Positions 12,608 to 59,070 are shown, counted from the stretch's first letter. The stretch is 64,000 nucleotides of DNA from an uncultured Gemmatimonadota bacterium (GCA_902825965.1 CADEDA010000013.1:1-64000), one strand, 5' to 3'. Notes: generated by a model not told the origin, from the sequence alone. Numbers and translations: made by a program.

Positions 12608-14662
12608 TTAGAAGGTGAATACCGCCGTCGCGAGTAGTGAACGCGATGCCAACGGGAAAAAGTATCGCGTGCTCCCGTCGGTGTATCCGCTCGCATACGC
12701 CGTCGCATCGAAGACATTCTGCACTTGGATGCGGAATACGTGCCGCGCGATCTCGACGTTCGCACCGGCGTCAACGATCGTGAACGCCGGTGTTGTCAAC
12801 GCCGCGTTGCCATCGTTCGCGAGGAACGAGCGCCCCACGTGTCGAGAACTGAACACTGCCTCGATGGTTGACAGCACGCGCCATCGCGCCGAGAGGTTCG
12901 CGAGGAGAGCAGGCGACAACAGTGGCGGCACATCACGATAGGTTATGCCGCTCGCGTCATCACGGTACTCGGCGATCCGCGCGCGCATCCACATCGCATT
13001 CGCATCCAAGTCGAGCGACGGCAGGACCTTCCAGGTGCCCTCGAGCTCCACTCCCACGCGGGACGAGCGTGGCACATTGCGACGCAATTGGCTGCCGGTG
13101 ATGCTCAGTTGCCCGATCGGCGCAATCTCATCGCGGAACCACATGCTGAACGCGTTAACCGTGAATGAGGCGTGTGTGCGACGAATTCGCAGCCCGGCCT
13201 CCAGGTCCGTGAGGCTTTCGGGCCGCACCTGATCCAGCGGCAGCACCTCCGGCGCCACGAGCGAATCGACATCGTCGGCGCCGGCGAAGAGGTCGGCACG
13301 CGCAGGCTCGCGGCCGCTCTGGCCGAGCGAGACGTAGGTGGTGAGCGTGGGTCGCGCGCGCCATGAGAGCGCGACGCGGGGATTCACGAACATCCAGTCG
13401 ACCCGCGGCGTGCCGATGTCCTGTCCGGGCGTGGGCCGATACCGGAACGCGGCGCGGCGCAGTTGCAGGTCGGCGGACCAGTCGAGCGCGCCACGCGTCA
13501 GCGTCGCCTTCGCGAAGGCGCTCTGCTCCTGCTTGAAGCCGGTGTTGTCGTAGACCTTGGTGGCGAGGTCGGGGCGGATCTTGAGGAAGTGGTCGCGGTG
13601 ATAGTCGCTGACGTGGGCGCCGGTGGCGATCTCGAGCGCAGGGCCGCGCCAGGTGAACGCGCTGATCAGCCCGTGCCACTCGTGGTCGAGGTTGAAGTTC
13701 CAGAGGTCCGGCCCGACGAACACGTCGTAGTTGCCGCCGGCGGCGTTGCGGTACGCCGTGGTGGTCCAGCTCGCCTGCCTGCCCACGGCGCGCGTGTACT
13801 GCACGTTCACCATCGACTGGTGGAAGTCATCCCGCTCCTCGGGCGACATCGGGTTGCTGCGCGGATCGACGGCGAGGTCGGCCTCGCTGGGGGCGTAGTA
13901 GGCCAGTTGCATCTTCGAGCGGCCGGCGAAGGCCGTGAGCTTGACCGCATCGCTCGCCCCGAACCAGCCCGCACTCATGAAGCCGCTCCGCGCATCGTTC
14001 CCCGAGTGCGCGCGGTAGCCGTCGGTCTCCTGTCCCGACAGGCGACCATAGGCCGCGAAGCCCCGCGCGAGTCCGCTCGCACCCTCGAGGCTCACCCGTC
14101 GCGTGCCCCAGGAGCCCGACGTGAGTTGCGCTTCCGCGAACCGCGGCGTGGTCGCCAGCGAGACGGATTCGAAGTTGAGCGAGCCCGCGAAGGCGGCCGT
14201 GCCGAAGGCGCTGGCGCCCACGCCACGCTGCACCTGCACCGACTGCATGGAGTTCATGAAGTCGGGCACGTTGGAGAAGTAGAGGACCTGGTCCTCGGGA
14301 TCGTTGAGCGGCACGCCATCGACGGAGATCGCGAGGCGCGTCTGGTCGACCCCGCGAAGCCGGAGGGAGCTGTAGCCGCTGAACGCGCCGGCGTCGGTCG
14401 CGGCGGTGATGCCGGTCGCCCCGAGCAGCGCGAGCGGCGCGTCCTGCCCCGCGTAGCGGCGCTCGATGGTCGCGCGGTCGAGCACGGTGCGCGAGGTGGG
14501 CGATGAGGCGCCGGCGCGTGTCGCGCGGATGACGACGGTCTCGAGCGTATCGCGACGGGCTTGCGCAGCGGCGCTGTCGCGGGCGGCCGGAGGTGGGGGG
14601 CCCTGCGCCGCGAGCATGGACGGCACGAACAGGACGGCGACGAACAACAAGCGGTGTGACAT
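12608..14662 (-). CDS. TonB-dependent outer-membrane receptor, probable thiamine transporter
   Basis: A 684-residue receptor. A signal peptide (MSHRLLFVAVLFVPSMLAAQ) precedes the plug domain (LETVVIRATRAG, then the GASAFGTAAFAGSLNF region) and a 22-strand-type barrel ending in an aromatic residue (LLATAVFTF), the signature for outer-membrane insertion. The start at 14662 was chosen because the in-frame extension to 14830 lies inside a riboswitch. A TPP riboswitch with a terminator-like hairpin precedes the gene, so expression should fall when thiamine pyrophosphate is plentiful; this makes thiamine or a precursor the likely substrate. The MarR gene follows after 9 bp. Confidence 0.85.
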   Translation of the reverse strand: MSHRLLFVAVLFVPSMLAAQGPPPPAARDSAAAQARRDTLETVVIRATRAGASSPTSRTVLDRATIERRYAGQDAPLALLGATGITAATDAGAFSGYSSLRLRGVDQTRLAISVDGVPLNDPEDQVLYFSNVPDFMNSMQSVQVQRGVGASAFGTAAFAGSLNFESVSLATTPRFAEAQLTSGSWGTRRVSLEGASGLARGFAAYGRLSGQETDGYRAHSGNDARSGFMSAGWFGASDAVKLTAFAGRSKMQLAYYAPSEADLAVDPRSNPMSPEERDDFHQSMVNVQYTRAVGRQASWTTTAYRNAAGGNYDVFVGPDLWNFNLDHEWHGLISAFTWRGPALEIATGAHVSDYHRDHFLKIRPDLATKVYDNTGFKQEQSAFAKATLTRGALDWSADLQLRRAAFRYRPTPGQDIGTPRVDWMFVNPRVALSWRARPTLTTYVSLGQSGREPARADLFAGADDVDSLVAPEVLPLDQVRPESLTDLEAGLRIRRTHASFTVNAFSMWFRDEIAPIGQLSITGSQLRRNVPRSSRVGVELEGTWKVLPSLDLDANAMWMRARIAEYRDDASGITYRDVPPLLSPALLANLSARWRVLSTIEAVFSSRHVGRSFLANDGNAALTTPAFTIVDAGANVEIARHVFRIQVQNVFDATAYASGYTDGSTRYFFPLASRSLLATAVFTF

Positions 14663-14734
14663 GACCGGATACCTCAAGCTGAAGGATTCCGGAGTGACGG
14701 ATCCCCGTCGGGTACCGCGGCCTCGAACACAACA

Positions 14735-14767
14735 GGCCACGGCACCCGACGAGCGGGTGCCATGGCC
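14735..14767 (-). terminator. Terminator-like hairpin of the TPP riboswitch expression platform
   Basis: Two 14-nt arms (GGCCATGGCACCCG on the sense strand) pair with one G-U around a 5-nt loop, followed on the minus strand by the T-rich TGTTGTGTTC. It sits between the riboswitch aptamer and the receptor start, where a transcription-attenuation platform would be expected. No competing anti-terminator was worked out. Confidence 0.6.
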
Positions 14768-14789
14768 CGGGGAGGCGCGCATGACACTC

Positions 14790-14872
14790 GCCGCACTCCC
14801 TACGCCGGTGTTGACCGGGTCAGGTTCCAAGAGACTGTCTCAACCCCGCATTCGCGGAGTACCCCTGGCGGC
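14790..14872 (-). promoter_or_regulatory. TPP (thi-box) riboswitch
   Basis: On the minus strand this region carries the conserved TPP aptamer elements in order: GGGGTACTCC at the 5' end, a TTGAGA (the CTGAGA element) at 14843-14838, GGAACCTGA with ACCTGA at 14825-14820, the CCGG-TCAACA-CCGG helix, and CGTAGGGA at 14804-14797. The 3' part is a near-perfect match to the thi-box. It lies about 130 nt upstream of the TonB-dependent receptor. The divergent M28 peptidase starts 94 bp to the right, so the promoter must lie in that gap. This feature and the hairpin account for most of the 303-bp gap between the two genes. Confidence 0.92.
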
Positions 14873-14965
14873 TGTGCAGAATGCATAGTGGTGGCACCGG
14901 CGCCGCGCCAGAGGGTGCCGCAGCCACCCGGCGGGTGCGGAGCGGGCCAGCGGGCCCTAGCTTCG

Positions 14966-26352: not shown

Positions 26353-28434
26353 TCAGGGCCACGTGAGAATACGAACGAGAACGGAGTCAGTGTTCGCGGT
26401 TACCGTGACAAGTCGGCTGCCGTTTCCCACGAACTCGAGCAACGCCGGCGAATCGGGCAGTAGGGCACGGTCGACGATCGCGCCGTCGGCCACGCGCGTC
26501 CGCACGAGGGAATAGCGTGCCGGAGTCTGGAAGCCGACACGTCTGACACGCACCACGAACTCCCCGGTCGGGTCTGCCGCGATCCCCAGCGTCATGGAGG
26601 CACCGCTCGGCGCGCGATGCGCCGCAAGCACCTGTCCTTCGCCGGAGACCGTCCCGCTGTTCGCGAACAGGAAATCCGATCCTTCTCCGACTGCCGGTGG
26701 TCCAGCGAAAAGTGTACAGAGTCCCGGGCCGAACTGTCGGGAGTCGGAGAGCCAGCGCGTGACGCAGTAGTGGACTCCGGAATGCACCGCCACGCGCCGA
26801 CCGTCGCGGCTCCTGATCATACGGACCGGCTGGGGTTCGGGGCCCGGAAGGCCAACGCCGGAATTCGCGCCCACATCCGCTTCGTACCAACGCCGTGCGC
26901 CCGATGCAACATCGGTGACGATCATGAAGAAGCTGCCGGAGGCGGTGACCCGCATGGCGATCGGTCGGTCCTCACCATTGGAGTCGAGACCGGGCAGCGC
27001 CGTCGCCACGAGCGGCGCGAGCGGGGTCGCGAGCGGTAGCGCATGGAGTCGCGCATCACCGGTCACGAGATAGAGCGTCGACTCGTCGAGCGACAGGTCC
27101 ATCGCGAGCGGGGCAAGTCCGGCAGGCGACAGCGTCCGAACGACCGCGCCGGTCGATAGGTCGAGGATGCTCGCGACGTTCGTCAGGACGATCGCGACGT
27201 TGTGGCGTGACGACACCACGAGGTCCAACGGGGTGCCACGCGGCAACTGCACGCTTCGCGACTCAAGGGTCAGGGTCGGATGAATGCGGAACTCGGAAGG
27301 CGGATAGGTGCGCGTCACCGCCGAGTTCTTCGCAAGGTCGACCACACGGGCACGGAGATGCGGACGCCCCAGCCACGCGTCCGTGAGGAGGATCGACCGC
27401 ACCGCAGTCTCTCGCGCCGAGCCGGCGATACGCACCGAGTCTCGTTCGCCGGAGGAGAGGTCTTCGAGCACGGCGTAGTCGAGCCCTCCATTGTCGCGCG
27501 CTCCGAGCACGTAGCGGAACGGCTCACCGACGAAATGGTCCCCGATCGGAGTCGGCGACGTGGGCCCGAAGCTGTCCTCGAAGGCTGGCGCCATGGTCGG
27601 CGGCACGGTGTCGATGACCGGAATCCGGATCGGCCAGCGTGATGTTGAGACCCGACCGCGCGAATCAACCGCCACGACCTCGAGCGACAGGGAGTCGCCC
27701 GCGCGGCATTGCCACGGCAGGACAAAGGATGTTGAGCGGACGACCGTCGGCGCGGTGCGCTCGAAGTACAGCGTGTCGACCTCGCATCCCGTGCTGCTCA
27801 CACGGAATCCGGTTTGCCAGAGCAGCGCTCCGGCTTCCGCCCGATACTGCACCCGCAGCGAGTCTCCCGGCTGCACGGCAGCAGCATTCGTGAACGTCAC
27901 CTGGGAGAGCGCCGGCGCCGCTGTCTCCGCGGGATCCGGCTCGCACGCATAGCGAACGATTGCGCGAGAGTGTCCCGAATCCGCGCGCTCGGGGATTCGA
28001 TAGCGAAACTCCAGTTCGGCCGTGTAAGGAAGGCCGACTGACAGCTGGACCGACGTGTCCAGTACGGAATCGGCACTGATGCTCGAGAATCCCCATGCGG
28101 AGCGCGCGTCCACACCGTTGCCGACGAGTGAGTCCTGTGGTGTGCTGCGGTCCGGCCCGAGGAGCAAGCGCAGCGTGTACCCGGTCCACTGGGCGTTTCC
28201 GTTGCCGGTCGCCGTCGCGCGGATGGTCGCGATGCAGGTCGCGAGCGGGTTCCCCGCGGAGTCGGTGCTGAACGTCGGTCCAGTGACGGACGTGACACTG
28301 AGAATCACCGTGAGTTCCGGCTCCTCGTCCGGACCCGACGGATCCCCGCTGCACCCCACGCCCAGCGCCGCTGCCGCGCCCAGCGCGACAGCGGCCCGCC
28401 ACAGCCCCCGCCCGCCTACGGCGTCGGTGCGCAT
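26353..28434 (-). CDS. Large lipoprotein with C-terminal propeller-like repeats
   Basis: A 693-residue lipoprotein of no recognised family. The start at 28434 gives a signal peptide ending at the lipobox LGVGCSG followed by an acidic linker. The first 380 residues look like Ig-like or fibronectin-like modules (TATGNGNAQWTGYTLRLLLG); the remainder has propeller-like strands (VVSSRHNVAIVLTNVASILD, LSLDESTLYLVTGD). It overlaps the end of the BNR/VPS10 gene by 19 bp, so the two are probably cotranscribed and may act together at the cell surface. Base composition is slightly less GC-rich than its neighbours. Confidence 0.7.
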   Translation of the reverse strand: MRTDAVGGRGLWRAAVALGAAAALGVGCSGDPSGPDEEPELTVILSVTSVTGPTFSTDSAGNPLATCIATIRATATGNGNAQWTGYTLRLLLGPDRSTPQDSLVGNGVDARSAWGFSSISADSVLDTSVQLSVGLPYTAELEFRYRIPERADSGHSRAIVRYACEPDPAETAAPALSQVTFTNAAAVQPGDSLRVQYRAEAGALLWQTGFRVSSTGCEVDTLYFERTAPTVVRSTSFVLPWQCRAGDSLSLEVVAVDSRGRVSTSRWPIRIPVIDTVPPTMAPAFEDSFGPTSPTPIGDHFVGEPFRYVLGARDNGGLDYAVLEDLSSGERDSVRIAGSARETAVRSILLTDAWLGRPHLRARVVDLAKNSAVTRTYPPSEFRIHPTLTLESRSVQLPRGTPLDLVVSSRHNVAIVLTNVASILDLSTGAVVRTLSPAGLAPLAMDLSLDESTLYLVTGDARLHALPLATPLAPLVATALPGLDSNGEDRPIAMRVTASGSFFMIVTDVASGARRWYEADVGANSGVGLPGPEPQPVRMIRSRDGRRVAVHSGVHYCVTRWLSDSRQFGPGLCTLFAGPPAVGEGSDFLFANSGTVSGEGQVLAAHRAPSGASMTLGIAADPTGEFVVRVRRVGFQTPARYSLVRTRVADGAIVDRALLPDSPALLEFVGNGSRLVTVTANTDSVLVRILTWP

Positions 28435-31400
28435 CCGCTCACCGTGGCACACTTCGGATCCAGCGGCGGCAGCTGCAGCCGCGCCAGCTCCGCATTCACG
28501 GCCGCCAGCTCCGTCCGCCAGATCTGCTGCAGCGTGCTGGTGTACCCGCGCAGTTCCCGCTCCAGGATCCCGTAGATCTCCGGCATGTTCGTCGTCGGCC
28601 GCCCGTCCCCGCGCTCGGCCATCGACAGCAACGTCGCAAGGCGGTTGTTCACCTTGATCGGGAAGTTGAGTGGGTCCTGCCCGCTCTGGTTGCGCACCTG
28701 ATAGATGTTCTCCTCCACCGCCGAGGCCTTGGTCCGCAGGACGTCACCCTTGGCGGCCAGGTTTCGGTCGGAGTTCTTCGCGGTGCGGTCGGCGAGCTGT
28801 TCCTTCACGCGCCGGATCTCGATCACCGCCTGGTTGGCCTCGGTGGCCTTGTCCCGCACCATCCGGCCGAACCGATACTGCGCGTGCAGGTCCGCGTCGG
28901 TCACCTCCGGCAGGCGCGGATTGCGCGCGACCGTGAGCGGCGCCGTGTGCGCCTTGCCGTCGGCCACGAGGCGGATGGTGTAGCGACCGGGCGGCACCGC
29001 CGGACCCGCGGTCCCCGCGCCCCAGAGGATCATCCCCGGGAACCCCACGATGGGCGACGTGCGCAGGTCCCATTCGAAGCGCGTCAGGCCGGCCGTGGCC
29101 GGGATGAAGGCCGCGCCCCCGCCCCGCCGACGCCCGCCGCCCGCCGCACCGGCCTGCGCCGCGCTGCGCGACGTGTCGTTCTCCCACTTGCGGAGCACCG
29201 CGCCGGCCGAGTCGAGGATCTCGAGCGAGGCGCGCTGCGGCGCCTTGCTGAACCGCCAACTGATGGACGCCGGCAGCCCCGACCGCAGGGCCGTCGGCGA
29301 GGCGAAGAGCTGCGCGTCCGCCACCATGCGCGCCGGCGTCATCTGCCGCAGCGGCGCGATGTTGTCGAGCACCCAGAACCCGCGCCCGTGCGTCCCGATC
29401 ACCAGTTCGTTGTCCTCGACGATGAGGTCGGCCACCGGGACATCCGGCAGGTTGAGCGAGAGCGATTGCCAGCGCGCCCCGTCATCGTACGACACGTAGA
29501 CGCCGTGCTGGGTTGCCGCGTAGAGCAGGCCGCGGCGCGTGGGATCCTCGCGCACGGCGTGCACGTAGTCGTCGTCGCGCATGCCGGCGGTGATCCGCGT
29601 CCAGGTGCGGCCGTAGTCGTTGGTCCGGAAGATGTATGGCGCGAAGTCGTTGAGCAGCGGCTTGCGCACCGAGAGATAGGCGGTCCCCGACGCGAACGCC
29701 GAGGCGTCGATCTGGCTCACGCGCCCGAAATCGGGCATGTCCTTGGGCGTGATGTTCGTCCAGGTCTTGCCGCCGTCGCGCGTGACATGCACCAGCCCGT
29801 CGTCCGAGCCCACCCAGATCACGTTCACGTCGCGCTTGCCCGGGGCCACGGAGAAGATGGTGCCGTACACCTCGGGGCCGTTCATGTCGCCCGTGATCGG
29901 CCCACCGGACTTCTCCTGCGTCTCCGGCGCGTGCCGCGTGAGATCACCCGAGAGCGCCGCCCACGTCTGCCCGCCGTCCATCGTCATCCAGAGCCGCTGC
30001 GACGACACGTACAGTCTCCGCGGATCGACCGGCGAGAAGATGATCGGATACGTCCACTGCCAGCGCTCCTTGATCTCCTTGCTCGGCTCGCCCGAGTAGA
30101 ACCAGGGATACGGGTTCACCTCGCGCGAGAGCCCGGTGCGGCGGTTGAACTTGTCGAGGTAGCCGCCGTTGTTCGTGCCGGCGTAGAAGAGGTCCGGGTC
30201 CCGCGGGTCCGGGGCGATGTAGCCCGGCTCACCGCCGCCGGCGATGTAGGAGACCGCCATGCCGCCCGCGGTGAGGTCGCGGTAGGCTGCGCCGGGCGCC
30301 GCGGGCGGCGCGGGCGGCGCTGCGGCCGCCGCGCGGGCCGCGTTCACGTTCCAGTTGAACGGCGTGCAGATGGTGGTGTTGTCCTGCTGCGAGCCGCAGA
30401 CGTGGAAGGGGATGTGCTTGGTGGTGATGACGTGGTAGAACTGCTCGGTGGGATAGTCCTGCTCCGTCCAGGTGCGCCCCGTGTTGGTCGTGATGGCGCC
30501 GCCGCCGTCGTTGGCGACCACCAGGTGCGCGGGGTCCTGCGGATCCACCCAGAGATCGTGGAAGTCGCCGTGGGTGCCGTTGCCGATGGAGGTGAGCGTC
30601 TTGCCCTGGTCGGCGGACCGGAAGAGCGAGGTGTTCTGCGCGTAGACCACGTCCGCGTTCTGGTGGTCCGCGAACAGGTGCGTGTAATAGAAGGCCCGCT
30701 GCCGGATCGAGCGGTTCTCGTTCATGAGCGTCCAGGTCGCGCCCGCATCATCGGACTTGAACAATCCACCCTTCTCGTTCTCGATGAGCGCATACACCCG
30801 GTTGGGGTTCGCGGCCGTGAGCGCGACACCGATCCGGCCGATGAGCCCGCCGGGCAGGCCCGCATTGCGCGTGATCTCGCTCCAGGTCTCGCCGCCGTCC
30901 GTGCTCTTGAACAGCCCCGATCCGGGGCCACCCGACGACATCTGGTACTCCTTGCGGTAGGCCTCCCAGAGCGCCGCGTAGATCACGTTGGGGTTCGTGC
31001 GATCGATCGCGATGTCGATCGCACCGGACTTGTCGTCGCGATCGAGCACCTTGCGCCAGCTCTTACCGCCGTCCGTGCTCTTGAACACCCCGCGTTCCGC
31101 ACTCGGCACACTGTACTTGCCGAACGACGCGACGTAGACGATCTCGGGGTTGGTGGGATGGATGCGGATCTTGGCGATCCCGTGTGACTCGCGGAATCCG
31201 ACGTGCGCCCAGGTCTTCCCCGCGTCCGTCGACTTGTACACGCCGTCGCCGGGCATGATGTTGCCGCGGATCGCCGTCTCGCCCATGCCGATGTAGACGA
31301 GGTCGGGGTTGGTCTCGCTCACCGCGACCGCGCCCACCGAGGCCGACTTGACCTGCCCGTCGGTGACCGGGAACCAGGTCTCGCCGCCGTCGACGGTCTT

Positions 31401-31640
31401 CCAGAGTCCGCCACCCGTCGCCCCGAAGTACGCCTCATTGCGCCGGCCGACGACGCCACTGGAGGCGATGGAGCGTCCCCCGCGATCCGGCCCGATGTTG
31501 CGCCAGCGGTACTGGGACAGGATAGCCGAGTCGAGGGTGACCGGCTCGAGGCTCGGGGCGGCCTGCTGACGGTCGCGGGCGAACGCGCCCAGCGACAGCG
31601 AGGCCGGAATCAGCAGGGCGAGGGGACGGAGCGAAAGCAT
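28416..31640 (-). CDS. Secreted VPS10/sortilin-like BNR-repeat protein
   Basis: A 1074-residue exported protein starting with a signal peptide at 31640. It carries at least ten Asp-box/BNR motifs, for example TVDGGETWF, STDAGKTWAH, STDGGKSWRK, TMDGGQTWAA, TRDGGKTWTN and TNDYGRTWTR, defining sialidase-like beta-propellers of the VPS10/WD40-YVTN-BNR class. The last 250 residues form a separate domain with an Ig-like part (RFEWDLRTSPIVGFPGMILW) and helices. These proteins are strongly expanded in Gemmatimonadota and are often misnamed glycosyl hydrolases; sialidase catalytic residues were not identified here. It is followed with overlap by the lipoprotein gene. Confidence 0.85.
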   Translation of the reverse strand: MLSLRPLALLIPASLSLGAFARDRQQAAPSLEPVTLDSAILSQYRWRNIGPDRGGRSIASSGVVGRRNEAYFGATGGGLWKTVDGGETWFPVTDGQVKSASVGAVAVSETNPDLVYIGMGETAIRGNIMPGDGVYKSTDAGKTWAHVGFRESHGIAKIRIHPTNPEIVYVASFGKYSVPSAERGVFKSTDGGKSWRKVLDRDDKSGAIDIAIDRTNPNVIYAALWEAYRKEYQMSSGGPGSGLFKSTDGGETWSEITRNAGLPGGLIGRIGVALTAANPNRVYALIENEKGGLFKSDDAGATWTLMNENRSIRQRAFYYTHLFADHQNADVVYAQNTSLFRSADQGKTLTSIGNGTHGDFHDLWVDPQDPAHLVVANDGGGAITTNTGRTWTEQDYPTEQFYHVITTKHIPFHVCGSQQDNTTICTPFNWNVNAARAAAAAPPAPPAAPGAAYRDLTAGGMAVSYIAGGGEPGYIAPDPRDPDLFYAGTNNGGYLDKFNRRTGLSREVNPYPWFYSGEPSKEIKERWQWTYPIIFSPVDPRRLYVSSQRLWMTMDGGQTWAALSGDLTRHAPETQEKSGGPITGDMNGPEVYGTIFSVAPGKRDVNVIWVGSDDGLVHVTRDGGKTWTNITPKDMPDFGRVSQIDASAFASGTAYLSVRKPLLNDFAPYIFRTNDYGRTWTRITAGMRDDDYVHAVREDPTRRGLLYAATQHGVYVSYDDGARWQSLSLNLPDVPVADLIVEDNELVIGTHGRGFWVLDNIAPLRQMTPARMVADAQLFASPTALRSGLPASISWRFSKAPQRASLEILDSAGAVLRKWENDTSRSAAQAGAAGGGRRRGGGAAFIPATAGLTRFEWDLRTSPIVGFPGMILWGAGTAGPAVPPGRYTIRLVADGKAHTAPLTVARNPRLPEVTDADLHAQYRFGRMVRDKATEANQAVIEIRRVKEQLADRTAKNSDRNLAAKGDVLRTKASAVEENIYQVRNQSGQDPLNFPIKVNNRLATLLSMAERGDGRPTTNMPEIYGILERELRGYTSTLQQIWRTELAAVNAELARLQLPPLDPKCATVSGCAPTP

Positions 31641-31930
31641 GGACGGGGTCTGGTGGGGGTGGACCACGATCGGGAACGCAGGGGCCTGCCGGAATGTTGC
31701 GACATCCGAGGTCTGAGAGCCAGCGGGATGAGCGCAAGGCAAGTTCGTCTCGCGCCCCCCGCGCGAGTTCCAGTTACGCCGAGATACACTGGAACGGACG
31801 GCGGCAAGGCCACTGGATTGGCGCAAGCGGCACTCCGTCCGCTATTGTGAACGTTGGCAATGCCGCAGGGCAGTGAGTCGACCGGAGTGCTGAGCGTTCG
31901 ACGAGTCTCCCTTCCATCGAGGATGCTTCG

Positions 31931-37675: not shown

Positions 37676-38923
37676 TCAGCGCCGCACGACCGACGACGTA
37701 AAATCCACAGACGCCGTCTGATCCCCCCAGGCGAGCTCGATCCGTCCAGCGGCGGGCGACACGGCGCTCACGGTGATGGTGAACTCCTCGACGTGCGTGG
37801 ACGGGCGGAGCGTGAGCGGCACACGTCCCACGTCCTGTGTCGCGTCGTACTGGGTGCCCCACTGCCCGGTCTGGCGATTCACGATCAGATAGGTGCCCGC
37901 CGTGGTATGCTGCACCCAGAGCGTGTACATCCCCGGCGCGAGCGTGAGGGTCGACCCGAACGTGAGTGTGCGGGTGGTGAACAGATGCGTCGCGTCGTTG
38001 GCGCCGGCACGCCAGATGGAGTCCATGGGGATGAGCGTGCCGCCCCAGACGCTGCGCTCGCGCACCGACGGGCGCCCGTAGTCGATGACCACCATACCGC
38101 CGGGACCGAAGCCCGCGCGGGCGTCGGCGCGACCGGAGAGGACGCCGGTGGGACGCATGCGCTGGGCGAGCGCCGCCAGGTCGAGGCCGCCATCGCCCCG
38201 CTGCGCCTTCGCCTTGTTGGTGGTGAACGATCCGTCGACGGAGATCAGGCGGTCGCTCGCGTCGAACGCGAGGATCATCGCGTAGGGACCGCCGCGCAGG
38301 GTGGACGTGCTCGTCGAACCCGCGGTCTGCGGCGCGGTGAGCCCCGTGAACCCCAGCCCGCCCGCGAGCCCGAGGGCCGGCAACGAGTCGCTGGCGACGC
38401 CGGCCCGCCGCAGGGACGCGATCACTTCGGTAGGACCGTACACGAAGGTCGGGAAGTTGATCATGGCCTGCCGCGCGGCGAATACGCGGCGCTGCGTGCT
38501 GTCGGCGAACACCACCTCGCGCACGACCGAGTCGGCGCCGATGCTGAAGCGCGTCTCCACCGGCGCGTTCGGGAACGGTGAGCCATCGGCCTGCAGGCGC
38601 GCGAGCGCGCCGCCGGACGGACGGCCATCACGCCCGAGCGCGACGCGATACCGCAGGCGGACCACCGCCGCGCCGCTGCGCTGGATCGTCTCGCCACTGA
38701 GCGCGGTGCCGCTGCGGGTCCACTGCTCCACGGCGAGGGTGTCCTTGCCGAGGAGATAGACGAGCGAGGCGGATTGGGCAGCTGCGGGCGTCGCGGTCAG
38801 GGCCGTCATGCTGGCCGCCGCGGCGGCCAGCGCGATCGTGCGCGCGACGGGCCGCGCGACGGCGTCGACGCGATTTCGGGTACGGATGGCGAGGAGGGAG
38901 GTGCGGAGCGAGGTCGGGCGCAA
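37676..38923 (-). CDS. Secreted DUF2911 protein, possible last gene of the bufferin operon
   Basis: About 415 residues. A signal sequence (hydrophobic IALAAAAASMTALTATPAAAQ) precedes an unassigned beta-rich domain (residues 55-235, QSASLVYLLGKDTLAVEQW) and a C-terminal DUF2911 domain (GMVVIDYGRPSVRERSVWGG, MYTLWVQHT). DUF2911 has no known function. No ATG or GTG fits before the signal peptide without overlapping DoxX, so a TTG at 38923 is proposed, 29 bp after the DoxX stop; confidence in that start is low. Same strand and short gap make cotranscription with bufABC-doxX possible. Confidence 0.7.
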   Translation of the reverse strand: MRPTSLRTSLLAIRTRNRVDAVARPVARTIALAAAAASMTALTATPAAAQSASLVYLLGKDTLAVEQWTRSGTALSGETIQRSGAAVVRLRYRVALGRDGRPSGGALARLQADGSPFPNAPVETRFSIGADSVVREVVFADSTQRRVFAARQAMINFPTFVYGPTEVIASLRRAGVASDSLPALGLAGGLGFTGLTAPQTAGSTSTSTLRGGPYAMILAFDASDRLISVDGSFTTNKAKAQRGDGGLDLAALAQRMRPTGVLSGRADARAGFGPGGMVVIDYGRPSVRERSVWGGTLIPMDSIWRAGANDATHLFTTRTLTFGSTLTLAPGMYTLWVQHTTAGTYLIVNRQTGQWGTQYDATQDVGRVPLTLRPSTHVEEFTITVSAVSPAAGRIELAWGDQTASVDFTSSVVRR

Positions 38924-38952
38924 GGAGGACTCACGGGGAGAGACCCCGGATT

Positions 38953-39408
38953 CTACGTCTCCACGCTCCGACGCGCGAGACTGCGCCGGAGAAGCCACGC
39001 GTCCGCCGAGTACTTGCCCGACCCGCGAACCAGCAGCAGCACCAGGACCGTCGCCCACAGGAGGTGATCGCTCCACGCATTCGGATACACGAAGGTCTGG
39101 ATGACGGCGATCATCCCCAGCAGCGGAAGCGTCGCGAGTCGCGTGGCGAGTCCCAGGAACAGCAGCACGGGCAGCGTGAGCTCCTGCACCGTCGCCATCC
39201 GGGCGGCGAGCGTCGGATCCAGCAGGGGCACCATGTACTCCTCTTCAAACAGTTTCACCGTGAACTCGAACGACTGGACCTTCAGCAGTCCAGCCTTGAA
39301 GAACACGGAGCCCACGCCGATGCGCATGAGCAGGAGCAGTGGATCGAGTGGTACTGCGTCGAATCGGGTGAAGGCGCCTCGCAGGGCGACGCCAAGACGG
39401 TTCAGCAT
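38953..39408 (-). CDS. DoxX-family membrane protein of the bufferin operon
   Basis: A 151-residue protein with four hydrophobic helices. DoxX features are LLLMRIGVGSVFFKAGLLKV, LPVLLFLGLATRLATLPLLGM and NAWSDHLLWATVL. DoxX-like proteins commonly form the fourth gene of DUF2282-DUF692-DUF2063 operons (gigT-type gene in Cupriavidus), where they may pass electrons to the maturation or detoxification reaction. It overlaps the end of bufC by 7 bp. Confidence 0.88.
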   Translation of the reverse strand: MLNRLGVALRGAFTRFDAVPLDPLLLLMRIGVGSVFFKAGLLKVQSFEFTVKLFEEEYMVPLLDPTLAARMATVQELTLPVLLFLGLATRLATLPLLGMIAVIQTFVYPNAWSDHLLWATVLVLLLVRGSGKYSADAWLLRRSLARRSVET

Positions 39409-40214
39409 GACGGGAGGTCCTGCGCCGGTCGGCGCGCGTCCAGGGCGGTGATGGCACCGCCAGCAATGAGTTCGGCGAGCAAGAGGCTCGCACGGGTTTC
39501 GTCGGGTACGGAGGCGAGGGCCTCCGCGAGCGTCAGGCCCTCGAGCAGCGCACCGAGCAGCCGGGCGCGATCCGGGGCGACGCGCTCGAGCGTGACCTCG
39601 CCACGCGCGCCGCGCAGCAGCAGATGTCCCGACGCCGGCGCCATCTCGGTCGGCGTCGTGTCGTCTCCGGTGAAGAAGCGCTCGAAGAGGCGCTCGACGG
39701 GCCAGCGGACCGGGAGCACGCGCCAGCCGTGCTGCACGGTCACGCGGCAGCGCGCGAGCACCTCGTCGTCGCCCGCCAGCGCCGACAGCGTGTCCAGGGT
39801 CAGGGGCGGCGCATCCACCGCGACCGACACCTGGCCGAGCTGCCACTCCACCAGCGCGAAGTCCGGCACGTAGGGCAGCGTCTCGCCGAGTCGCGCGGCC
39901 AGATGCTGCGGAAACGAGTCTCCGTACTCCGCGATACACGGACGACGCGGCGGATGCTGTTGCACGAACTCCTCCGCCATCGCGACCAGCGTCGGTTCGC
40001 CGACGAGCCAGGCGGTCGCGGGGAACTTCGTGCGCAGGGCCTCGAGCAGCGAGGCGCGGTAGTGCCGCCGATGGACGGCCAGACGCACCGACGGACGCAC
40101 GCCGCCGACCAGCTGTCCCGCGAGGGCGGTCGCGCCGCGAAGGCTGACGATCGGTCGCGCCGGGTCCGCCGTCACGATCTCCCGAAGGGCGTCCTGCACC
40201 TCAGCGAGTCGCAT
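39402..40214 (-). CDS. bufC: DUF2063 partner of the MNIO maturase (BufC-like)
   Basis: A 270-residue protein of the DUF2063 family (putative DNA-binding domain by old annotation). The N-terminal helix-rich domain has the family hallmark VHRRHYRASLLEALRTKFPATAWLVG near residue 48-73 and PPRRPCIAEYGDSFPQHLA; the C-terminal part is beta-rich and is the region that handles the precursor in characterised relatives. It overlaps bufB by 14 bp and DoxX by 7 bp. In bufferin systems this protein binds the precursor leader and presents it to the DUF692 enzyme. Confidence 0.88.
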   Translation of the reverse strand: MRLAEVQDALREIVTADPARPIVSLRGATALAGQLVGGVRPSVRLAVHRRHYRASLLEALRTKFPATAWLVGEPTLVAMAEEFVQQHPPRRPCIAEYGDSFPQHLAARLGETLPYVPDFALVEWQLGQVSVAVDAPPLTLDTLSALAGDDEVLARCRVTVQHGWRVLPVRWPVERLFERFFTGDDTTPTEMAPASGHLLLRGARGEVTLERVAPDRARLLGALLEGLTLAEALASVPDETRASLLLAELIAGGAITALDARRPAQDLPSC

Positions 40215-41049
40215 GACAGCGCTCGAGGTGGCCGCGCGCCGTCTCCGCTTCCGCCATCAGCGTGTGGAGTGCCGGGATGTCGTTGTCCCACTCGATGAGC
40301 GTCGGTCGCGGTCCCAGGTGTTCCAGCACTGTCTCATACAACGCCCACGACTTCGCGTCCACCACCGCGCCGTGGGTATCCACGAGGATCGTCTGCTCCG
40401 CCGTCGCGGGATCCTCCTCCTCCGCGAATCCCCCGAGGTGAAGCTCGGCCACCGCCCCCGGGTCGATCTCGCGAACGTACGCCACCGGGTCGTAGCCCAG
40501 GTTGTGCGCGCTGATCACGACGTTGCTCACGTCCAGCAGCAGCCGGCAGCCGCTGCTCGCCGCGAGGCGGTTGAGGAACTCCGGCTCGCGCATCGTCGAG
40601 CCGGCGAATCCGACGTAGCTCGACGGATTCTCGAGCACGAAGGTCCGCCCGAGCGCCGACTGGACCTCATCGAGATGCCGCGCGACGACGTTCAGCGTCT
40701 CCTCCGTGTAGGGCAACGGCAGGAGGTCGTTGAGATAGTCCCCTTCGTGCGTCGACCACGCGAGGTGCCCGGACACCAGGTCCGGGTCCAAGGCCGCGAC
40801 CATCTCCGCCACGCGCGCGAGGTGGGCCCGGTCGACCCCATGGGCGGACCCGACGGAGACACCCACCGTGTGCACCGAGACCGGGTAGTCCCGCGCTATG
40901 TCCTCCAAGACCTCGCGTCCGTGTGGGTTCGCGAGGAAGTTCTCCGGATGGATCTCGAACCACGCGACGGGTGGACGCGTGGCCGCCACCTCGAGCAGGT
41001 GCGGCAGTCGCAGCCCGATGCCGGCGCCGACCACGCGTCGCCCGATCAC
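40201..41049 (-). CDS. bufB: DUF692 multinuclear non-heme iron oxidative enzyme (BufB-like)
   Basis: A 282-residue TIM-barrel enzyme of the DUF692/MNIO family. Likely iron ligands are visible along the chain: [66 protein letters not shown] and [13 protein letters not shown] enzymes oxidise Cys residues in ribosomally made peptides to heterocycles; in bufferin systems the product is a thiooxazole. The GTG at 41049 overlaps the precursor stop by 4 bp (GTGA), which fixes the start and implies coupled translation. The closest alternative, methanobactin MbnB, is disfavoured because the partner here is DUF2063 and the precursor is DUF2282. Confidence 0.9.
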
Positions 41050-41330
41050 ATCGCGCTCTTGTTGCCGCCGACGATCCGCTCGCAGTAGCCTGCCGGCACG
41101 AAGATCCAGGCCTTCTTGTCCGCGTCGACCTTGGAATGGCCGGCGCAGGAGTTGTTGCCGGTCGCGGCGCAGTCGTTCTTGCCGGCCTTCGCGATCCCGT
41201 AGCACTTCTCCGACTTGAAGCTCGGCGCCTTCGCCGGGCCCTGCTGCGGCGTGGCGTACGCCGGCAGTGCGGCCGCCGCGGCGATGATGGAGGCGATGGT
41301 CAGGCCCTTCGTGAGTTCGCGCGTGTTCAT
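41046..41330 (-). CDS. bufA: DUF2282 bufferin precursor peptide (BufA-like)
   Basis: A 94-residue small secreted protein. Residues 1-26 form a Sec signal peptide (hydrophobic [15 protein letters not shown]). The mature part has four Cys in the DUF2282 pattern: [25 protein letters not shown] and [11 protein letters not shown]. In characterised bufferins the two central Cys become thiooxazoles that bind copper, while the outer two are left. The ATG at 41330 starts the signal peptide; an in-frame start at 41351 would add seven residues. It is the first gene of the operon and follows a GTAACC-N16-CGAA motif. Confidence 0.92.
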
Positions 41331-41406
41331 CGGACACCTCGAGCAAGGCATCGGCGCGCCGCGCCCTCGTGGCGAGGACGGACCGATGCGGGTTGGGTGC
41401 CCTGAG

Positions 41407-41432
41407 TTCGACGGGTCCGGCGGAAAGGTTAC
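41407..41432 (-). promoter_or_regulatory. Predicted SigF-type ECF promoter of the bufferin operon
   Basis: On the minus strand GTAACC (41432-41427) is followed after exactly 16 nt by CGAA (41410-41407). This equals the promoter consensus I recall for SigF of Caulobacter, which controls the homologous operon there. It would place the transcription start about 70 nt upstream of bufA. No matching motif was found facing the sigma factor gene itself. Confidence 0.75.
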
Positions 41433-41440
41433 ATTGGGGC

Positions 41441-42010
41441 GTGACTGAGCCCGACCGCTCGGACGACCGGCGATTCGGCGACCTCATGCGCGCAGCGCAG
41501 GACGGGGACCAGCGCGCCTACGGGCGGTTGCTCCAGGACCTGAGTGCGCTGCTGCGGCGCGTGGTCGCTGCGCGCGGCAGCCTGGTCCGCCCCGCAGATG
41601 TCGACGACGTCGTACAGGAGATCCTGCTCTCCGTGCACGCCGTGCGGCACACGTACGATCCGGCGCGACCGTTCCTGCCGTGGCTCATGGCCATCGCCCG
41701 GCACCGCATGCTCGACGCGAGCCGACGGGCGCGCCGCATCGCGGCACGGGAGCACTCGACCGACGACCCCGGCGTTACCTTTGTCGAACCCGCGACGAAT
41801 CCGTTTCAGGAACCCGTGGGCGATGCCGAGGCGTTGGCGAGCGCCCTCGAGAGCCTGCCGCCGGGCCAGCGACAAGCCATCACGTTGCTCAAGCTGCACG
41901 ACATGTCCCTGCAGGAGGCAGCGGCCGCGACCGGACTGTCGGTTGGCGCCCTGAAGGTCGCGACCCATCGCGCCATTGCCGCCCTGCGAAAGGCGCTGGT
42001 AGGAGACTGA
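41441..42010 (+). CDS. sigF: ECF sigma factor (SigF-type)
   Basis: A 189-residue ECF sigma factor. Region 2 is [29 protein letters not shown] and [22 protein letters not shown]; region 4 is [44 protein letters not shown]. The YDP.RPFLPWL motif and the following NrsF gene are typical of the SigF/NrsF group that responds to heavy metals. The GTG at 41441 was chosen. It is divergent from bufA with about 110 bp between starts and sits 4 bp before the anti-sigma gene. Confidence 0.88.
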
Positions 42011-42014
42011 CCCC

Positions 42015-42665
42015 GTGGACCGACCGCACGACCAAACGCACGACCGGCTCATCGCTGAACTGACCGCCTCGGCTGCCGCCGTACCGCGGCTTCCGCATCC
42101 GGCGTGGCGCGCGTGCACTTGGCTGGGCGTGTCCGTCGCGTACGTGGCGCTGGTCGCATGGGCGCAGGGCCCGCGCGATGACCTCGCGCTCGTCCTCCGC
42201 GACCCGGCGTTCGTGAGCAAGATCGTGCTCGGCGTTGGGGCGGCCTTTCTCGCGGCCTGCGCGGCGCTCGCGATGGTGGTGCCCGGCTTCCCTGCCCCGC
42301 GGCGCGTCGCCCTCGCGTTGGCCACACTCGCATGGTTGGCGTGGATGGTCGTCGAGTCCTCGCGCGCGGGTGTCGCCACCCCCGACGCGATCGCGGGCTG
42401 GAGCTGCTTCGCGACCGTCCTCGTCTGCGCGAGCATCCCGATGGTCACGCTCGCGGCCCAACTGCGCCGCGGCGCGGCGCTCGCCCCCGTCCATACGGTT
42501 GCCTACGCCGCGTTGGCCTCAACCCTCCTGGCCGACGTCGGCGCGCGCCTCTGCGACGGGCACAGGGATGCCGCGCATCTGTTGGTGCACGTGGCGGCGC
42601 TGGGCGTGTTCACGGTAACCGCCGCGATGTTGGCGCCGCGCGTGCTGCGCTGGCAGGCCCACTAG
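42015..42665 (+). CDS. nrsF: NrsF-type (DUF1109) membrane anti-sigma factor
   Basis: A 216-residue integral membrane protein with a short cytoplasmic N-terminus (DRPHDQTHDRLIAELTASAAAV) and six predicted helices, as expected for DUF1109/NrsF. NrsF proteins hold SigF inactive at the membrane until metal stress releases it. The GTG start 4 bp after the sigma stop gives tight co-expression. Conserved Cys are present in helices (AACAAL, WSCFATVLVCAS), a candidate for the metal-sensing part; this is inference. Confidence 0.85.
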   Translation: MDRPHDQTHDRLIAELTASAAAVPRLPHPAWRACTWLGVSVAYVALVAWAQGPRDDLALVLRDPAFVSKIVLGVGAAFLAACAALAMVVPGFPAPRRVALALATLAWLAWMVVESSRAGVATPDAIAGWSCFATVLVCASIPMVTLAAQLRRGAALAPVHTVAYAALASTLLADVGARLCDGHRDAAHLLVHVAALGVFTVTAAMLAPRVLRWQAH

Positions 42666-43671: not shown

Positions 43672-44206
43672 TCAGCCCCGCCCCACTCCCACCAATCGCG
43701 CAATCGCCCGCAGCCCCTCCTCCCCCACATCCAGCGACCACTCGTTCACGTACAGCTGGATGTGCTGCCGGCACACCTCCTCGCTCATTTCCTGCGCGTG
43801 CGCCCGCACATACGCCGCACTCGCCGTCGGATGCGCGAAGGCGTAGGCGGATGATGAGCCCTGCGTCCACGTCGCCCTTCGCCACGGCCCGCAGGATCCG
43901 ATCGTAGCGCATCTCCACCGCCTCGGCCAGGGACGTCGGTGTGCGCGTGACCACCAGCGGCCCCACGCCGTGCCCCAGCGCCGCTCCGCTGCGCAGCATG
44001 GTGTAGCGCGCACCCACGCCGGCGAACGCGCCCACGCTCAGCTTGGTGAAATCGAACTCGCCCTCGTGCGCGCGGCGGTTGAGCTCCTCGATGTCCAGCA
44101 GCACCGGCCGCACCGCGAACGGCAGTGCCACCAGGCCGTGCGTCAGTGCATGGAACGCGAAGGTGTCGTTCGGGCAGGGCGAGTAGCCGAAGGTCAGCGT
44201 ACGCAC
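43672..44206 (-). pseudogene. mqnD: Decayed duplicate of mqnD (dihydroxynaphthoate synthase)
   Basis: A broken second copy of the mqnD gene at 49407-50195. From the GTG at 44206 the first 92 residues are nearly identical to the intact copy, then an in-frame deletion of about 84 nt removes the stretch between LAEAV and EMRYDR, and a further out-of-frame deletion of about 170 nt follows LII; the remaining C-terminus (YAFAHPTASAAYVRAHAQEM to LVGVGRG) continues in another frame. Total length is 535 nt against 789. It cannot make a functional enzyme. Confidence 0.9.
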
Positions 44207-44218
44207 GCGGCGATCTCC
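43942..44218. repeat. 277-bp tract identical to 49931-50207 (copy 1)
   Basis: Every base I compared across these 277 bp matches the same-orientation tract at 49931-50207, including all third codon positions of mqnD and the mqnB-mqnD overlap. Divergence begins sharply at both ends (G versus C on the left, T versus A on the right). The copies are about 5,989 bp apart as direct repeats. Confidence 0.95.
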
Positions 44219-44666
44219 TCGAGCACCCGTGGCGTCACGCCGGTAATCGCGGCGAACGCCGCATCGTAGTGTCAGCGCGCGCGGTCGGACTCTTCCACGT
44301 CATTGGAGATCGCGCGCAGCACGGCGAAGCCCTCCATCGCCTCCACGTCGCAGCCTTCACTTCCCTCCTCCCCGCCCCCCACTCCGCCCCCCACCCGCGC
44401 TGTCGCGGCGATGGGCCGCAGCATGGCGCCGGGAAGCGCACGGCGCACCGCCGCCAACATCGCCGCGTCCGGATGGGCCTCCGACGGCGCCAGGCCGTTG
44501 GAGAGGTGTAGGTCTCGGTAGCGCGCCACCGAGCCGATCACGAGGCAGCCCGGCGCGCGGCGCCCACGACGGGGCCCACGCCGCAGAGCAGCGTGGCACA
44601 GGGGAGATCGGGTGCGAGCTCACGCGCGGTGTCAGCGACGACGAGCAAGTCGGCGGCGACAGGCAT
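44194..44666 (-). pseudogene. mqnB: Decayed duplicate of mqnB (futalosine hydrolase)
   Basis: A broken second copy of the mqnB gene at 50183-50779. It starts with a recognisable N-terminus (LLVVADTARELAPDLPCATLLCGVGPV), then a frame-shifting deletion removes the equivalent of intact residues around 40-70, another deletion removes AAQLAGVPAVEL, and the Trp codon after ESDRAR is TGA. Length is 473 nt against 597. It overlaps the mqnD remnant by 13 bp, just as the intact pair does. Confidence 0.9.
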
Positions 44667-49406: not shown

Positions 49407-50195
49407 CTACCCGCGCTCCACTCCCACCAAGCGCGTGATCGCCCGCATCCCCTCATCCCCCACATCCAGCGACCACTCGTTCACGTACAGCTGGATGTGC
49501 TGCCGGCACACCTCCTCGCTCATCTCCTGCGCGTTCGCCCGCACATAGGCCGCACTCGCCGCCGGGTGCGTGAACGCGTACGCCACTGACTCGCGGATCC
49601 CCCGCTCCATCGCGCGCATCGTCGTGGCATCCAGGTCGGCGCGCGCACAGATGCCCGCCAGCGGCACCGGCAGTGCGGTCTCGCCCTCCCACCACTCCCC
49701 GAGGTCCTGCGCCTTGTGCAGGCCGTGCTCACGGTACGTGAACCGACTCTCGTGGATGATCAGCCCCGCCTCCACCTCGCCCTGCTCCACCGCGCGTAGG
49801 ATCCGGTCGTAGCGCATCTCCACCGGCTCGGCGATCTCCGGCGCGGCCAGGCGCAGCAGTCGATACGCGGTCGTCTCCTTCCCCGGGATCGCCACGCGCC
49901 CACGCACGGCCTCGGCCAGGGTCATCGGCCTGCGCGTGACCACCAGCGGCCCCACGCCGTGCCCCAGCGCCGCTCCGCTGCGCAGCATGGTGTAGCGCGC
50001 ACCCACGCCGGCGAACGCGCCCACGCTCAGCTTGGTGAAATCGAACTCGCCCTCGTGCGCGCGGCGGTTGAGCTCCTCGATGTCCAGCAGCACCGGCCGC
50101 ACCGCGAACGGCAGTGCCACCAGGCCGTGCGTCAGTGCATGGAACGCGAAGGTGTCGTTCGGGCAGGGCGAGTAGCCGAAGGTCAGCGTACGCAC
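49407..50195 (-). CDS. mqnD: 1,4-dihydroxy-6-naphthoate synthase (futalosine menaquinone pathway)
   Basis: A 262-residue enzyme with the periplasmic-binding-protein-like fold of MqnD. The opening FGYSPCPNDTFAFHAL is characteristic, followed by DFTKLSVGAFAGV and GPLVVTRRP. MqnD converts cyclic dehypoxanthine futalosine to 1,4-dihydroxy-6-naphthoate, a late step of menaquinone synthesis. The GTG at 50195 lies inside mqnB, giving a 13-bp overlap. This is the intact copy; a decayed duplicate lies at 43672-44206. It ends 22 bp from the convergent CocE-type gene. Confidence 0.92.
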   Translation of the reverse strand: MRTLTFGYSPCPNDTFAFHALTHGLVALPFAVRPVLLDIEELNRRAHEGEFDFTKLSVGAFAGVGARYTMLRSGAALGHGVGPLVVTRRPMTLAEAVRGRVAIPGKETTAYRLLRLAAPEIAEPVEMRYDRILRAVEQGEVEAGLIIHESRFTYREHGLHKAQDLGEWWEGETALPVPLAGICARADLDATTMRAMERGIRESVAYAFTHPAASAAYVRANAQEMSEEVCRQHIQLYVNEWSLDVGDEGMRAITRLVGVERG

Positions 50196-50207
50196 GCGGC
50201 GATCTCC
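49931..50207. repeat. 277-bp tract identical to 43942-44218 (copy 2)
   Basis: Second member of the direct-repeat pair, covering the first 265 bp of the intact mqnD and its overlap with the end of mqnB. Identity is perfect over the whole tract by eye. Confidence 0.95.
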
Positions 50208-50779
50208 ACGAGCACCCGTGGCGTCACACCGGTGATCGCGGCGAATGCCGCGTCGAAGTGCCAGCGCGCACGGTCGGACTCTTCCACGTCGTTGGAGATC
50301 GCCCGCAGCTCGACCGCCGGCACGCCGGCGAGCTGCGCTGCGCGCAGCACGGCGAACCCCTCCATCGCCTCCACGTCGCAGCCCAGCGCGCCCCCGACGC
50401 CGCCGGCCACGCCGCCTCCCACCTGCGCCGAGGTCGCGATCGGCAGCACCGGGGCGGCGGGCAACGCGCGGCGTGCCGCCGCCAGCAGCTCCGCATCGGG
50501 GTGGACCTCCGTCGCTGCCAGGTCACTCAAGAGACGCAAGTCCCCGTACCGCGCCACCGATCCGATCACAAGGCTTCCTGGCGCGAGGCCAGCCGCCCGA
50601 CGCGCACCAGCGATGCCCACGTGGAGCACGGCCTTCGGTCGGTGATGGACGATCGCGGCCGCCGTCCGCGCCGCCGCTTCCACAGGTCCCACGCCACATA
50701 GCAACGTGGCGCAGGGGAGGTCGGCGGCGAGCTCCCGTGCCGTGGCGGCGACGACGAGGATGGGGAGACCGTCTGGCAT
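50183..50779 (-). CDS. mqnB: Futalosine hydrolase
   Basis: A 198-residue nucleosidase of the PNP/UDP phosphorylase fold. Motifs include LLCGVGPVEAA, VLHVGIAGARR, LGCDVEAMEGFAVLRAAQLAGVP and ELRAISNDVEESDR, matching the purine-binding and catalytic region of MqnB. It removes hypoxanthine from futalosine in menaquinone synthesis. The ATG at 50779 was chosen; the in-frame extension to 51205 runs through a tandem repeat. It overlaps mqnD by 13 bp. Confidence 0.9.
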   Translation of the reverse strand: MPDGLPILVVAATARELAADLPCATLLCGVGPVEAAARTAAAIVHHRPKAVLHVGIAGARRAAGLAPGSLVIGSVARYGDLRLLSDLAATEVHPDAELLAAARRALPAAPVLPIATSAQVGGGVAGGVGGALGCDVEAMEGFAVLRAAQLAGVPAVELRAISNDVEESDRARWHFDAAFAAITGVTPRVLVEIAACVR

Positions 50780-58748: not shown

Positions 58749-58822
58749 TAGCTGGGGCGGGACTCGAACCCGCGACCCCGGCATTATGAGTGCCGTGCTC
58801 TAACCAGCTGAGCTACCCAGCC
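58749..58822 (-). tRNA. tRNA-Met (elongator, anticodon CAT)
   Basis: A complete cloverleaf: acceptor GGCTGGG, D-stem GCTC/GAGC, anticodon stem CGGCA with loop CTCATAA, T-arm GCGGG-TTCGAGT-CCCGC. The body resembles E. coli elongator tRNA-Met rather than tRNA-Ile2. CCA is not encoded. Its 3' end faces the integrase remnant. Confidence 0.95.
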
Positions 58823-58949
58823 GCATCCGGCCGAACCCTCGGCCAGCGACAATACCAGCCACAAAACATAAAGCCTCCTACCCGGCCCACCAACCCCGCC
58901 GAATCGTCGTGCGGTCCGTCGGCCGACATCCCGCATCCAAAACGCATCC

Positions 58950-58985
58950 AAAACGACAGGGCGCTCCCGAAGGAGCGCCCTGTCG
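58950..58985 (-). terminator. Intrinsic terminator after tRNA-fMet
   Basis: Perfect 14-bp stem with arms CGACAGGGCGCTCC and its complement around a 4-nt loop, followed on the minus strand by TTTT. It lies 11 bp past the 3' end of tRNA-fMet. Confidence 0.85.
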
Positions 58986-58996
58986 TCTTGGATCCA

Positions 58997-59070
<74 letters not shown>

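Follow-up and report, generated by a model that had tools for sequence, protein, structure and literature searches.

The closest described relatives of the locus considered here are sigF–nrsF of Caulobacter crescentus with the operon CC3254–CC3257 (PMC3511200, PMC8224329) and the gigPABT–rpoQ–rsqA cluster of Cupriavidus metallidurans (PMC10304878). In such relatives, metal stress releases an extracytoplasmic function (ECF) sigma factor from the anti-sigma factor NrsF, an enzyme of the MNIO family and its partner protein form thiooxazoles, and copper is bound in the periplasm (PMC3511200, PMC8224329, PMC12452194, PMC13097082). The Caulobacter sigF gene has a sigF-type site upstream of it, and yet does not strongly amplify its own expression (PMC3511200). 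Here we describe the related system found in a window of 64,000 nucleotides (nt) (GCA_902825965.1, CADEDA010000013.1:1-64000), whose host is likely a member of the Gemmatimonadota. Positions 38953–42665 hold a complete, standard bufferin-1 operon together with an ECF sigma factor of the sigF/rpoQ kind that would control it. The reading we favour, at a probability of roughly 70%, is that NrsF frees this sigma factor, which would then drive bufA and, through a promoter predicted within its own gene, nrsF.

The preliminary description of the window had assigned genes for a DUF2282 precursor, a DUF692 MNIO, a DUF2063 partner, DoxX, an ECF sigma factor and NrsF to a system spanning 37676–42665. Hidden Markov model (HMM) searches bear out the gene set, all above the curated cut-offs, and chance matches are excluded by the E-values of the Pfam family matches of the six proteins (1e-12 to 1e-92). 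The span, on the other hand, has to be shortened: 38953–42665 is the system, and the gene at 37676–38923 encodes a DUF2911 protein outside it. On the minus strand lie bufA (41046–41330), encoding a bufferin-1 precursor of 94 residues (DUF2282, 82.7 bits, cut-off 22.4); bufB (40201–41049), which has a GTG start and encodes the MNIO bufferin maturase (Pfam MbnB_TglH_ChrH, 309 bits); bufC (39402–40214), for the DUF2063 MNIO partner protein (69.6 bits, cut-off 27.2); and doxX (38953–39408), for a gigT/hvfX-like membrane protein of the DoxX family (57.6 bits, cut-off 23.6). Divergent from these, on the plus strand, are the ECF sigma gene (41441–42010; GTG start; Sigma70_r2 and Sigma70_r4_2, 49.6 bits) and nrsF (42015–42665), encoding the membrane anti-sigma factor (53.7 bits, cut-off 26.8). 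The divergent pair and the overlaps of 4–14 bp had also been noted before; the overlaps measure 4 bp for bufA/bufB, 14 bp for bufB/bufC and 7 bp for bufC/doxX. Gene set and order match CC3252–CC3257 and gigPABT-rpoQ-rsqA (PMC3511200, PMC10304878), as had been proposed. The likeness to Caulobacter covers genes, order and divergence, and extends to the bufA promoter and to two NrsF cysteines. Searches for sigma-70-type promoters and terminators gave none above chance level.

The Caulobacter sigF promoter reads GTAACC-N16-CGAA (PMC3511200). An exact match, of which 0.04 are expected per window, lies at 41407–41432 on the minus strand, with its −10 end 76 nt 5′ of bufA. This is the sole exact sigF motif in the whole 4.07 Mb genome, and exact copies occupy the equivalent place in Afipia and in G235, a genome of the same family as the host. 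A relaxed version of the motif stands before bufA in 14 of the 20 clusters with an adjacent sigma gene, compared with 5 of the 61 without one (81 clusters in all; p = 1.6e-7). The gig/rpoQ region of C. metallidurans (L178 2794–2879) shares the divergent layout (PMC10304878) and contains two exact divergent sigF-type sites, one before gigP and one before rpoQ. No RpoQ-dependent promoter is reported to have been identified there so far (PMC10304878), and in the parts of the literature consulted we did not find the two sites described.

It is in the control of the sigma gene itself that the window departs from both described systems. The region upstream of its sigma gene contains no sigF site (best score 7/10), and the second-best sigF motif genome-wide lies within the gene, reading in the sense direction towards nrsF, which starts 215 nt further on. 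This site, predicted to be an intragenic promoter of the sigF type for nrsF, occupies 41774–41799 on the plus strand (GTTACCTTT-N13-CGAA, one mismatch). Caulobacter has its site upstream of sigF instead, a trait of that gene which is not established as group-defining; C. metallidurans likewise has a site upstream of rpoQ and no internal one. In 44 sigma genes compared, an upstream site was found in 12, with an internal site in none of these (0/12), whereas 15 of the 32 genes without an upstream site have an internal one at a fixed position (p 0.003); counting a gene with a differently placed start codon brings the carriers to 16. The carriers come from several phyla, and in each the site occupies the same codon positions of the linker that joins sigma regions 2 and 4. 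The match is exact in G235, a Xanthobacteraceae metagenome-assembled genome (MAG), Paraburkholderia fungorum and Burkholderia glumae; eleven further genes and that of the window are within one mismatch. The sigma tree limits the internal form to one clade and places the upstream form mostly in the sister clade, which holds C. metallidurans RpoQ. The last part of the sigma gene contains AGGAG, 5′ of nrsF, and a short transcript could therefore be translated.

Since a linker protein motif, [VE]TF-x5-[AT]N, might by itself force the DNA sequence, each sigma gene was rebuilt 200–400 times from synonymous codons drawn according to the codon usage around it. The summed best site scores of 22 genes came to 241, against 200.7 ± 3.7 for this null (maximum 210); for 13 control genes the observed sum was 100, against 104. 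Codon choice at the site is correspondingly narrow. The valine codon is GTA in 6 of 7 cases (background 5%), glutamate is GAA in 11 of 11 (43%) and phenylalanine TTT in 12 of 12 (35%), with p values for these three ranging from 1e-4 to 1e-7; threonine is ACC in 16 of 18 (40%), and 18 of 19 Ala/Thr codons have G as their last base. Taken together, the preferred codons spell GTAACC-TTT-...-CGAA. Judged by this conservation, the intragenic promoter appears to be a regulatory variant. We consider it more probable than not that, throughout a clade of ECF sigma factors linked to bufferins, the sigma coding sequence itself contains an autoregulatory promoter, by which the anti-sigma factor would be induced and the sigma factor itself would not. 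This feedback, set in linker codons, would have been kept across Gemmatimonadota-like, alpha- and betaproteobacterial genomes, the sister clade having an upstream promoter instead. Such a variant was not found described in the literature, the start-site tables of Caulobacter and C. metallidurans being covered at the level of the main text.

Several observations weigh against the combined reading. In the window's intragenic site, base 3 of the −35 element is mismatched (GTTACC), and a single mismatch to the Caulobacter consensus, mostly in the form GAAACC, is found in 12 of the 16 carriers. The codon tests count related sigma genes as independent, and shared ancestry makes the rows non-independent; the proteins are only ∼50% identical, however, so that synonymous sites should be saturated. 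The DoxX protein scores 55.7 with the NCBI HvfX model, under its cut-off of 80, and copper need not be the sole metal, because a related cluster adjoins mercury genes. The intragenic motif might also be no promoter at all, but a by-product of the conserved linker motif or of slow codons. The amino-acid pattern of the linker is indeed itself conserved across the subgroup, but we think this explanation unlikely: the null, which preserves both protein and codon usage, is exceeded by ∼10 standard deviations, and the DNA remains T-rich although the third residue of the pattern can be F, L, I or Y. Moreover, the site presents a complete −35/−10 pair whose 16-bp spacing matches that of the bufA promoter, and genes with a site upstream of sigma lack it altogether.

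Two further alternatives concern the metal and the contig. An operon of this kind could handle mainly another metal or a soft electrophile (Hg, Au, Ag, Cd, chromate) and not copper. Caulobacter sigF responds to Cr and Cd (PMC3511200) and gig to gold (PMC10304878), and the mercury genes mentioned above are merR-merTPA, next to a plasmid cluster of Paraburkholderia fungorum (L168 1–4543) with the exact intragenic site. The bufferins described to date nevertheless bind copper, and loss of sigF renders Caulobacter copper-sensitive (PMC12452194, PMC8224329), which leaves a role mainly with other metals distinctly improbable, more so than the linker by-product. That the contig is of foreign origin and was binned with this genome by mistake is the least credible suggestion, and a very improbable one. 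The operon has no synteny around it in the nearest genomes, and none of the 16 remaining genomes of the genus has a BufB, but genes on the same contig have orthologues within the genus (an HDOD gene at 83% identity in genome G304, and the DUF2911 gene at 62–65% in three genomes), G+C content is level over the operon, and contamination is estimated at 0.71%.

The proteins themselves agree with a bufferin-1 operon read by a sigF-type sigma factor. The maturase had been called a bufferin enzyme in the preliminary description, and the family tests uphold this. BufB passes the NCBI bufferin-maturase model NF050167 (329.8, cut-off 310) and is far under the cut-offs of the models for the oxazolin maturase HvfB (NF003818; 190.7, cut-off 360), methanobactin MbnB (TIGR04159; 69.1, cut-off 325), ApyH and ChrH; the bufferin-2 (BufA2) model NF050166 gave 23.2, under its cut-off of 60. 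The active-site residues, comprising the iron ligands and the catalytic Asp (H60, H95, E140, D173, N176, H204, D224, H226, E253 and D255), are invariant or 99% conserved in 85 BufB rows. Read through an alignment with the solved relative 3BWW, the site-3 residues N176, D224 and H226 correspond to HvfB N175, D242 and H244, loss of which abolishes activity (PMC13419390), and D255 aligns with the catalytic base described for FonB (PMC13097082). The N-terminus of BufA is hydrophobic and ends in AYA, by inspection an apparent Sec signal peptide of about residues 1–26, and the mature part has four cysteines, Cys43, Cys54, Cys62 and Cys83, invariant in 81 of 81 homologues. In characterised bufferins the two central cysteines are modified and the outer pair forms a disulphide (PMC12452194); by homology, modification and copper binding would be expected of this peptide too. 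The AlphaFold model of BufC (predicted local distance difference test, pLDDT, 84) has as its top three PDB matches two TglHI chains (including chain A) and 3DEE, a DUF2063 protein of Neisseria, and its predicted fold is that of the MNIO partner proteins. The oxazolin (HvfABC) and fontiphorin captophorins likewise combine an MNIO, a DUF2063 partner, a secreted cysteine precursor and a thiooxazole product (PMC13097082, PMC13419390); they differ in their EGKCG-repeat precursors, and the HvfB score given above sets the window's BufB apart.

The sigma tree places the window's sigma factor with other bufferin-linked sigma factors, and by analogy it would be of the sigF/rpoQ type, group ECF16. NrsF has Cys180 as well as Cys131, the latter invariant in all 13 of 13 rows; the two correspond in position to C131 and C181 of Caulobacter, substitution of which weakens the hold of NrsF on the sigma factor (PMC3511200). 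Elsewhere, related sigma genes at three loci (L179, L180, L186), two of them with NrsF, adjoin peroxiredoxin and thioredoxin genes and not bufferin genes; these form a clade of their own, with neither an upstream site (score of at least 9/10) nor an internal one. On an Asticcacaulis plasmid (L183 2518–3824), two tandem NrsF genes lie 3′ of the sigma gene.

MNIO clusters are spread over the bacterial tree (PMC12452194), but bufferins are uncommon in this phylum. DUF2282 exceeds its cut-off in 4 of 298 same-phylum genomes, one of the four lacking an MNIO, and the BufB cut-off is passed in 3 of 179 genomes of the family, with one more slightly under. The earlier remark on the taxonomic setting holds only in part: bufferins outside Proteobacteria are not new, and close relatives occur in Acidobacteriota and in another Gemmatimonadetes MAG. 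In the BufB phylogeny that had been proposed, the window's protein lies inside a strongly supported clade of 15 (100/100) made up of bufferin clusters from Rhizobiales, Acidobacteriota, the same-family genome G235 and the Gemmatimonadetes MAG, whose precursors share GYC[ED]RIVG around the last cysteine. Clusters from Afipia, Xanthobacteraceae, Devosia, Acidobacteriota and the Gemmatimonadetes MAG are among the nearest to that of the window; identity to it is ∼60%, the Devosia members have an upstream sigma site, and some clusters have no adjacent sigma gene. Further copies from the phylum are placed near Acetobacteraceae and gamma- and betaproteobacteria. A single clade of all five phylum bufferins was rejected by the approximately unbiased (AU) test (p ∼1e-104); one uniting the window, G235 and L003 is compatible with it (p 0.13). 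As the copies are scattered in the BufB tree and a common clade is rejected, the phylum seems to have acquired bufferins several times, with at least three separate origins. The BufB of another same-family locus (L139, G322) scores 374.9 bits, above that of the window, and no window-like precursor was found beside it. The level G+C content argues that the window's operon is not a fresh arrival. In an empty-site comparison within the genus, the neighbourhood was not conserved in any genome, including the one whose HDOD gene is closest to that of the window, and no insertion boundary could therefore be drawn.

The DUF2911 gene (37676–38923, minus strand) encodes a secreted protein of 415 residues with a long N-terminal part to which no function is assigned. 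As a fifth operon member it is ruled out, and we regard it as a neighbour, because its orthologues occur in three genomes of the genus that have no BufB. Its one full-length plasmid relative is in Gemmatirosa, in keeping with a host that is likely Gemmatimonadota. An mqn-type menaquinone gene is present beside the buf locus as a decayed copy (43676–44645, 49411–50758), 76–91% identical and with internal deletions and a frameshift; an intact mqn-type copy is at 49407–50195. Elsewhere in the window, a thiamine pyrophosphate (TPP) riboswitch barely over threshold (14779–14876, minus strand) precedes the minus-strand gene 12608–14830, and two tRNA-Met genes lie ∼250 bp apart at 58749–59070 (minus strand). 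A tRNA-Arg called by ARAGORN at 30288–30367 (plus strand), inside the reverse-strand gene 28416–31826, is unconfirmed by Rfam and probably false.

Under the favoured reading of a bufferin-1 operon with an internal promoter for nrsF, the response would run as follows. By analogy with Caulobacter, periplasmic metal or thiol stress would act on the two NrsF cysteines and free the sigma factor, which is predicted to read the exact site before bufA and so switch on bufABC-doxX. As in characterised bufferins, BufB and BufC would oxidise Cys54 and Cys62 of BufA to thiooxazoles, and the peptide, exported by Sec, would bind excess Cu(I) in the periplasm. To judge from the conserved sequence, the sigma factor may also read the promoter inside its own gene, raising the amount of NrsF, and the response would then turn itself off as a self-limiting pulse in which sigma is not self-amplified. 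The internal form would make strict the lack of strong self-amplification seen with Caulobacter sigF.

On its own, the operon is an ordinary new member of the bufferin-1 family in an unusual phylum. It adds slightly to the range of hosts known for modified copper-buffering peptides and illustrates that these have spread horizontally, more than once, into a phylum in which bufferins are rare. The intragenic promoter, if true, would explain why sigma need not amplify itself, and the system would be predicted to behave as a pulse and not as a self-amplifying switch, which could be tested with existing 5′-end RNA data and with reporter fusions.

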